Shown here: positions 9,138 through 11,596 of the stretch, piece by piece
Layout of the letters: each line of letters opens with the position of its first letter
Numbering within the stretch: position 1 is the first letter of the stretch
Assembly: GCA_025360645.1 (NCBI GenBank)
Contig: JANYBT010000101.1
Location: 1 to 64,000 of the forward strand
From: Acidobacteriaceae bacterium
Lineage (GTDB): Bacteria; Acidobacteriota; Terriglobia; Terriglobales; Acidobacteriaceae
Direction of reading: 5' to 3'
DNA: 64,000 nucleotides
Position numbers and translations under genes: made by a program
The notes under the pieces: generated by a model
The model's input: only the letters and a program-made list of their open reading frames with translations
Databases searched by the model: none
Told to the model about the DNA's origin: nothing

Positions 9138-10796
9138 TTACGACTTCAAGGCCCGAACGCGCTCAGCCACATCACGATAATCAATATTGCCGGCGTAGGC
9201 CTCCAGAAAATGAGCGCGTGCGGCGGTGCGATCCTGGTTCGCCTCGCAAGCCAGCGCCGCCTCATAGTGCAGCGCAATCTGGGTGTCGCAATCGAGTCCC
9301 GGCGCGGCCAGCGCTTTCTCAAACCAGCGCGCCGCCAATCCAGGAATGCCCTTTAGCAGGAAGCACTGCGCCAGCGCGGCCAGACTCTCTGTGCGATGGG
9401 GGACGGGACGCAGCGCGTCGGCCGCCCGCATCACCAGTTGGAATTCTGCGATCGCCTCATCCAGCAGGCCGGCGCCGCGATACGCGATGGCGCGGGTGTA
9501 ATGCAGTTCGGGACCGTCTTGTTCGGGAGGAGGCGCCACCAGAGCCGAGTCGCGAAACCACTCCGTCAACCGCGGCGGATGAAATTCAAGAGGCGGCAGA
9601 GAGCGTGGTTGTGCCGGCGAAGCAGCCAGAGAGAGCGGGGGTACCGGCACGTCCAGCTTGACCTCTTCGAGCGGCGCAGGATACCTGGCGATATGCAGCT
9701 CGCTGTCGGCAGAAGAGAAAATGTCCCACGGAACATCGGGCGTCTCTTCGATGAATGGGCGCACCTCATTCGCAGGCTGGTCGCCGTCGGTGCGCTTCAG
9801 CAACGCATGCAGGGAAAGCAAAGCGATGGGGTCATCGTGCAGACGCTCAGCCAATTTCTTCAGGCAAGCACAATATTCGTCGGCACCCTGCGCCCGGAAC
9901 TCATCCGCGTGCTGTTCATACAGGGCGAGCGCCAATGCATTGCGTCCAGCGAGCACATGATCTTCAGCCAGTGCAGCGAAACCTGTCACGTCGTCGTGCA
10001 GTTGCAGCAATTTGGCGGCGGCCTCGCCCGCCTCCTCGATGTCGTTCAGGTGCAAGCAGGCCCGAAGAAGATGGCGCAGACCGTCGGCATGGGAGTCGAG
10101 CTGCGGAATTTTATGCAGGAACTGGATGGCCGCTGGCGCGTCGTCGTTGTCGAGGGCAAGGCTGGCGCGAAACAGCAGAGCGTCGAGGTTGCTGGGGTCG
10201 TCGTCAAGAATCTTCTGCAGAATGTCTTCGGCCTCGGCCGGCAGTCCGCGGCCCTTCAGCTTTTCGACAGCGGGCAGGAGCGCTTGCCATGCGTCTGTCT
10301 GGTTTCCCATCTGCAAGTAGGCGCCGGCCAGCTTAACCCGGGTGGCGGTATTCTCCGGGTCGGCCTGCAGCAGGCTCTGGAAAATGGCGACGGCCCGCGC
10401 CGGGTTGTGCCCTTGTTGAGCCGCTTCTGCCGCCTGCAGGTACTGCACCCGCGCCTCGCCGAGTTGGCCCTGCGTGGTATATAACTCGGCCAGTTTCAGG
10501 ATGCCGTCCAGTCCGGGATCGAGCTTGGCGACTTTTTTGTAGATGGCGATGGCTTTGCCGGTGAAGCCCGCGGTGGCGTAGGCGTCCCCTACGCGCTTGA
10601 AATATTCGACGGCCTTTTCGCTATCGCCGGAGCGAGAGTAGAGATCGCCCACGGTGTTGGTGACCATCAGGTCGGAGGGATCGTTGGCAAGAACCTTTTG
10701 GTATTCGGCGATGGCGGGTTGCAGTTCGCCGCGCTGCACGAATCGTTCCGCGGCGTCGAGCGAGCGTTGCTTGTTGAAGCCAAATCCAAAGTCCAT
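9138..10796 (-). CDS. Tetratricopeptide-repeat protein
   Basis: 552 residues built almost wholly from TPR-like helix pairs (A..Y..V.A.DP, for example LQPAIAEYQKVLANDPSDL and KAVEYFKRVGDAYATAG). The start MDFGFGFNKQRSLDAAERF is typical of acidobacterial TPR proteins. ATG 10796 is preferred over the longer frame to 11003 because the extension is non-TPR and the repeats begin immediately after it. TPR arrays are protein-interaction scaffolds; no partner is evident apart from the two downstream genes. No signal peptide is seen. Confidence 0.82.
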   Translation of the reverse strand: MDFGFGFNKQRSLDAAERFVQRGELQPAIAEYQKVLANDPSDLMVTNTVGDLYSRSGDSEKAVEYFKRVGDAYATAGFTGKAIAIYKKVAKLDPGLDGILKLAELYTTQGQLGEARVQYLQAAEAAQQGHNPARAVAIFQSLLQADPENTATRVKLAGAYLQMGNQTDAWQALLPAVEKLKGRGLPAEAEDILQKILDDDPSNLDALLFRASLALDNDDAPAAIQFLHKIPQLDSHADGLRHLLRACLHLNDIEEAGEAAAKLLQLHDDVTGFAALAEDHVLAGRNALALALYEQHADEFRAQGADEYCACLKKLAERLHDDPIALLSLHALLKRTDGDQPANEVRPFIEETPDVPWDIFSSADSELHIARYPAPLEEVKLDVPVPPLSLAASPAQPRSLPPLEFHPPRLTEWFRDSALVAPPPEQDGPELHYTRAIAYRGAGLLDEAIAEFQLVMRAADALRPVPHRTESLAALAQCFLLKGIPGLAARWFEKALAAPGLDCDTQIALHYEAALACEANQDRTAARAHFLEAYAGNIDYRDVAERVRALKS

Positions 10797-11029
10797 CACG
10801 ATGCCAACTCCGGCGCCGCGCTTCCGTACGGACGCTTTGCCTGGACCAGATCCCGACCGGTCCCGTAATTGCTCGGCTAAGAAAATTCTAATGACAAGAG
10901 GCAGAGGTGGAAAGATTACGGTGGTTACCTTGGCCGTGGCCGACAAGCGAGGGTACGCGTTGTGCGCGGGGCGGTGGGCGGCGATGAGGTAAACTGCGAG
11001 CACTTGATCACCGGAGGTAGGAGAAATTT

Positions 11030-11596
11030 ATGGCATGGATTCGCACCGTTGCAGCGTCGGAAGCCGACGAGACTCTTCGCCAGGCGATGGAGATGCAGAA
11101 GCCAATGTATCCCATGGAATATGCCACGCCGGTGCATCCGGCCGAAGGAGGCGGGTCGGAGATTGTGGCGTCGCACTCGCTGATTCCGCAGGCGTTGTTT
11201 CACGCGTTCGCCACGTTTGGCGCGCTGATGGCGCCCGACCTGCCGCTGCAACGTCGCCAGCACGAAATGATTGCGACGGTGGTGTCGGTGACCAACCGCT
11301 GCGTGTATTGAATCGAGGCACACGCAGAGTTTCTGCGTCGGGTGACGTTGGATCAGGGGATGGTGGAGGCGCTGGAGAAGGACTACACCACCGCGCCCAT
11401 TACAGCGGCCGAGCGGGTGATGCTGGACTACGTGGTGACGCTGACCAAAGACGCGACTAAGATTCGGCGCGAGGACCATGACCGGTTGCGCGAGGCGGGA
11501 TTCAACGACCAGGCAATTCTGCAGATCACGCTGATCGCGTCGTGGTTCAACTACATCAATCGGGTGGCGGACGCGCTGGGAGTGGGGAGAGAGTAG
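11030..11596 (+). CDS. AhpD-like peroxidase-related selenoprotein (in-frame TGA = Sec)
   Basis: A 188-residue alkylhydroperoxidase-D/carboxymuconolactone-decarboxylase-fold protein ('peroxidase-related enzyme' type), provided the TGA at 11309-11311 is read through. The frame runs unbroken on both sides of that codon. The motif becomes NRCVY-U-IEAHAEF, where the family has a CxxC redox pair followed by a histidine, so selenocysteine replaces the second cysteine (residue 94). A hairpin that meets bacterial SECIS rules follows at once. ATG 11030 has GGAGGTAGGAG just upstream. Residues after the TGA ([27 protein letters not shown]) are typical of the family's C-terminal half. The likely role is thiol/selenol-dependent peroxide reduction. 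No Sec-machinery genes lie in the window; they must be elsewhere for this to work. Confidence 0.85.
11322..11338 (+). promoter_or_regulatory. Bacterial SECIS-like hairpin
   Basis: ACGCAG (11322-11327) pairs perfectly with CTGCGT (11333-11338) around the loop AGTTT. The loop starts 16 nt after the TGA and has G as its second base. This fits the known bSECIS rules: short stem, small loop, early G, about 16-37 nt from UGA. Confidence 0.75.

Follow-up and report, generated by a model that had tools for sequence, protein, structure and literature searches.

We present here a gene for an AhpD-like selenoprotein of the peroxidase-related family in an acidobacterial genome, in which an in-frame UGA is predicted to be decoded as selenocysteine (Sec) by way of a stem-loop, a reading that we hold as a whole with very high confidence. 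The gene occupies positions 11030-11596 on the forward strand of the window (the whole stretch of 64,000 nucleotides analysed) and runs from ATG 11030 to TAG 11594-11596, encoding 188 residues when UGA is read as Sec. A strong Shine-Dalgarno-like sequence, GGAGGTAGGAG, lies upstream of the ATG (11012-11022, forward strand). The sole in-frame stop is TGA 11309-11311, at residue 94 and the second position of a CxxU motif, in the context RCVY-TGA-IEAH; the first-pass annotation of this DNA had described a frame uninterrupted save for this triplet at the second Cys of a CxxC motif, and the translation agrees. Conserved sequence runs on past the TGA to residue 186. Two overlapping or split genes, that is residues 1-93 and a separate product starting at GTG 11342, might be imagined here, since a mechanical open reading frame does exist at 11342-11596. 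However, such a division would sever His98 and the remaining catalytic helix from either piece, and the full 188-residue frame aligns as a single protein with its relatives in the PDB, so that we consider this arrangement exceedingly improbable. Automatic annotation will usually end the gene at residue 93 or label it a pseudogene, so that annotations of this conserved redox enzyme in soil Acidobacteriota and Gemmatimonadota are likely to be wrong.

The codon itself is conserved. We searched 84,980 species genomes for relatives using peptide patterns that read Cys at the Sec site, and which could not therefore favour TGA, and kept the 80 best loci (71-83% identical). These come mostly from Acidobacteriota, with some Gemmatimonadota, Latescibacterota and KSB1 contigs, and all 80 have TGA at the exact Sec codon; in 14 of them the automatic motif pattern failed at the residue between Cys and Tyr, and the printed frames show U in place. 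When these 80 were combined with the loci of a phylum survey, TGA was found in 109 and TGC in one of the 110 aligned homologous loci. A true stop, whether in a recent pseudogene or through a sequencing or assembly error at a TGC or TGT codon, has in its favour that TGA is one base away from either codon, and nothing else. Against it stand the same TGA in all 80 relatives, whose genomes were assembled separately, on which ground we rejected it, the conservation of the protein 3' of the TGA, and both the synonymous invariance confined to the hairpin and the Sec machinery described below; its probability is negligible. In every homologue inspected, the site is occupied by either Sec (TGA) or Cys, and the Cys-containing homologues (the PDB relatives and the TGC-bearing loci L117 and L002) align their Cys with the UGA. 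Thus, neither of two weaknesses that the first-pass annotation had foreseen in its own prediction, a sequencing error or homologues with other residues, was borne out.

The TGA form also tends to occur together with SelA. In the phylum survey (149 genomes), the relatives at 62% identity or above numbered 11, the host included; all carry TGA and lie in SelA-positive genomes. The next relative, at 60% identity, has TGC at the Sec site and belongs to a genome (G014) which is 99% complete and is without SelA. This locus (L117, G014:C125:5461-6015) is the only close relative without TGA; its first Cys is replaced by Thr (NRTRYC), and two further AhpD-like genes adjoin it on the contig. SelA was present in 33 of the 37 genomes with a TGA-bearing relative versus 70 of the 112 without (Fisher p = 0.002), and in 25 of 29 TGA genomes when the comparison was restricted to eye-checked sites (p = 0.03), p-values that serve as a guide only because the genomes share kinship. 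The four of these 29 genomes with a verified TGA in which no SelA was detected are all fragmented or incomplete assemblies (72-91%). A search of plasmids returned distant relatives alone, at less than 60% identity.

Directly 3' of the TGA lies a bacterial SECIS-like stem-loop (11322-11338, forward strand), composed of a 5' arm ACGCAG (11322-11327), a loop AGUUU (11328-11332) and a 3' arm CUGCGU (11333-11338), to which folding, near-invariant synonymous choice, one compensatory stem position and the published rules for bacterial SECIS elements all point. The distance from the TGA is 10 nt to the start of the arm and 16 nt to that of the loop, whose second position is G, exactly as the first-pass annotation had described this 6-bp hairpin with its 5-nt loop. 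Free-energy folding adds a seventh pair, A-U, leaving a three-nucleotide loop, GUU, that begins with G, and gives energies of -8.2 kcal/mol for the 17-mer alone and -14.5 kcal/mol for 11312-11351. Both forms of the hairpin satisfy the bSECIS rules, which ask for a loop of 3-9 nt, a stem of 4-16 bp, G in the first two loop positions, a spacing of 16-37 nt and an MFE of no more than -7.5 (PMC13188914). The two strands of the window together carry 1,799 TGA triplets; 37 of these (2%) are followed in the allowed range by a strict 6-bp SECIS-like hairpin, and the exact geometry seen here occurs after one alone, namely TGA 11309-11311. That the TGA replaces the second Cys of the motif is a separate matter from the chance of a hairpin, and this placement recurs in all 80 related loci.

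Codon choice, too, bears the mark expected of an RNA signal. We ranked 134 codons with conserved residues for synonymous invariance across the 91 TGA sequences that share 60% identity or more, and codons 98-103 (CAC GCA GAG TTT CTG CGT) took ranks 1-5 and 7, with a mean codon homozygosity of 0.97 versus 0.48 outside; synonymous choice in the flanking codons 95-97 and 104-106 varies like that in the rest of the gene. Such frozen sites are expected of an overlapping RNA signal, and protein constraint alone would not predict them. In distant relatives the hairpin is kept with other letters, for example ACGGAG/CUCCGU, and stem position 17-27 shows a C-G to G-C exchange, the sole clear two-sided change. 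Fixed-register pairing in 18 distant sequences (0.84) did not exceed that with shuffled partners (0.83), because some of these sequences use a shifted stem and there is little variation in most stem columns; it is thus synonymous conservation, more than covariation, that carries the case for the RNA structure. All 109 TGA forms conform to the stem-loop model, the MFE of their 24-nt core never rising above -7.2 kcal/mol. In contrast, the Cys form in G014 forms no stable hairpin, with a register energy of -3.5 versus a median of -9.0 kcal/mol.

In the host genome (3.82 Mb in 158 contigs, 99.9% complete) we found genes for SelA (438.6 bits), SelB (366.8 bits, above cut-off), SelD (361.5 bits) and a tRNA-Sec (71.2 bits) whose anticodon is TCA; with selA, selB, selC and selD all in place, the worry that Sec machinery might be missing falls away. 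The SelD gene (locus L022, G000:C103:10512-11441, reverse strand) itself contains an in-frame TGA at KAAG-U-ASKL followed by a long hairpin and appears to be a selenoprotein form of SelD, so that UGA recoding in this organism seems to extend beyond the gene described here. The same genome holds a second candidate selenoprotein of the AhpD/CMD type (locus L003, G000:C152:2637-3161, reverse strand), of 174 residues, with the motif RCEYU-LASH, TGA at 2922-2924 and a following hairpin CCGTCTT-GGC-AAGACGG; it scores 82.3 bits against TIGR01926, barely above cut-off. A Cys-type AhpD-like gene (NGCHYC) is convergent to selB at a distance of about 300 bp (loci L002 and L005, G000:C107:22072-24490).

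Reading of the UGA as another amino acid, such as Trp or Cys, by a suppressor or a reassigned code has nothing specific in its favour. It sits poorly with the dedicated UCA-anticodon tRNA-Sec and its accompanying SelA, SelB and SelD, with Cys at the site in the SelA-less relative, with the SECIS-like constraint on the RNA and with the many genes of the window that end normally in TGA, and we consider it very improbable. Decoding of UGA 94 as selenocysteine is instead strongly supported by these genomic comparisons, and the original placement of Sec at residue 94 is backed by the Sec machinery, the TGA of the relatives and the codon constraint of the stem-loop. In the proposed mechanism, SelB with Sec-tRNA(UCA) would decode UGA 11309-11311, steered by the adjoining stem-loop, to yield a member of the TIGR01926/COG2128 'peroxidase-related' family with an all-helical AhpD fold.

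Both the family and the AhpD fold are shown by the sequence, which scores above the cut-offs of both the TIGR01926 'peroxidase-related enzyme' model (115.3 bits versus 81.8) and PF02627 (38.3 bits versus 23), and are moderately supported by the predicted structure. The relatives found by sequence in the PDB (2pfx, 3c1l, 2prr, 6k40 and 2oyo) also topped the structure search, for which the model was of moderate quality (mean pLDDT 73.7, pTM 0.70), with a large rmsd to the full-length top matches. The proton relay comprises Glu118, Cys130, His132, Cys133 and His137 in Mycobacterium tuberculosis AhpD, and Glu36, Cys48, Tyr50, Cys51 and His55 in PA0269 of Pseudomonas aeruginosa. The corresponding positions are all filled here by Glu79, Cys91, Tyr93, Sec94 and His98, in agreement with the five-residue Glu-Cys-His/Tyr-Cys-His motif of AhpD; in alignment A1, Glu79, Tyr93, Sec94 and His98 are fully invariant and Cys91 nearly so. 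The expected relay glutamate, Glu79 (GAA, 11264-11266), lies 12 residues before Cys91, a distance shared with Glu118/Cys130 and Glu36/Cys48, and the expected catalytic histidine, His98 (CAC, 11321-11323), lies at Sec +4, as do His137 from Cys133 and His55 from Cys51; both residues are invariant in alignment A2 as well. By analogy with AhpD homologues, from which we infer the peroxidase chemistry, substrate and reductant, Sec94 would be the reactive nucleophile and Cys91 (TGC, 11300-11302), the counterpart of Cys130 of M. tuberculosis AhpD, its resolving partner. Sec94 would most likely react with peroxide, a likely substrate, or with another oxidised substrate; a selenenylsulfide would then form between Sec94 and Cys91, a cellular dithiol reductant would regenerate the enzyme, and Glu79, Tyr93 and His98 would serve as the proton relay.

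The Sec might nevertheless serve an enzyme that is no peroxidase but carries out another redox step on the CMD/AhpD fold, for example general disulfide exchange or a thiol/selenol-dependent reductive dehalogenation as in the debrominase Bmp8. Bmp8 (6ohj, 6ohi) is a distant structural neighbour (E ~1e-3) and proof that the AhpD fold can host other thiol chemistry, several of the PDB relatives are uncharacterised 'peroxidase-related' proteins, and the related PA0269 is no more than a weak peroxidase. However, it is the peroxidase-related group rather than Bmp8 that stands nearest in sequence and fold, and the positions of the proton relay are all retained; we give this alternative perhaps one chance in a few. 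On present analogy, the protein is most likely a peroxide reductase or a disulfide-exchange enzyme.

The neighbours of the selenoprotein gene encode a TPR protein, a LOG-family protein and a glyoxalase-family protein, and no peroxiredoxin or reductase partner was found adjoining it. Neither does AhpC lie beside the gene, which sets it apart from AhpD of the M. tuberculosis type, and no shared AhpC cluster was seen near the relatives. The large TPR-repeat protein (9138-10796, reverse strand) is divergent from the selenoprotein gene, an arrangement that the window shares with 22 of the 80 relatives, and an AMP-ligase-like neighbour occurs in 37 of the 80. We looked for a conserved operon and found none; the recurrent TPR and AMP-ligase-like neighbours name no pathway.

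We tentatively suggest, as a less probable extension of these findings, that the terrestrial clade sharing ~60% identity or more (Acidobacteriota, Gemmatimonadota and other groups) may be a subfamily in its own right within TIGR01926, almost exclusively Sec-containing, whose SECIS is all but frozen and whose specific function is something other than general peroxide removal, and that it may lose Sec only together with the Sec machinery. The 110 loci, with their near-frozen SECIS and a single exchange of Sec for Cys where SelA is missing, make a good natural data set that could inform Sec retention and loss, and SelB recognition, in these phyla.

AhpD-like CxxU selenoproteins were first found in data from the Sargasso Sea (PMC1088965), have been counted by the hundreds in GOS data (PMC2398784) and are listed under TIGR01926/COG2128 in reviews of 2022 and 2026 (PMC9312934, PMC13188914), with MCB9421940.1 as the listed representative; selenoproteins in Acidobacteria were reported in 2006. 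That the present gene is a further member of this already catalogued group is well supported, since it shares with the group the same family model above cut-off, the same Sec position in CxxU and the same type of SECIS. Related AhpD-type (seleno)proteins with CxxU are also described by NCBIfam models NF041238 (AhpD_rel_CFYUT) and NF053654 (GroundWater_YciW), and membership of both was rejected, at 61.9 versus a cut-off of 175 bits and 38.8 versus a cut-off of 310 bits, respectively. M. tuberculosis AhpD is a distant relative of duplicated topology (Foldseek E ~0.04) which works with AhpC, whereas AhpC was not found here; both it and PA0269 share the Glu-(12)-Cys-x-x-Cys/Sec-(4)-His relay with the present protein, and PA0269 also has Tyr before the second motif position. 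The Cys-type TIGR01926 structures in the PDB are similar over residues 57-185, with CxxC in the same place and His at +4, although they are only 22-30% identical and have Cys where the present protein has Sec. Finally, whereas the AhpD-like selenoproteins of the Sargasso Sea are from marine data, the present copy resides in a terrestrial acidobacterial genome.
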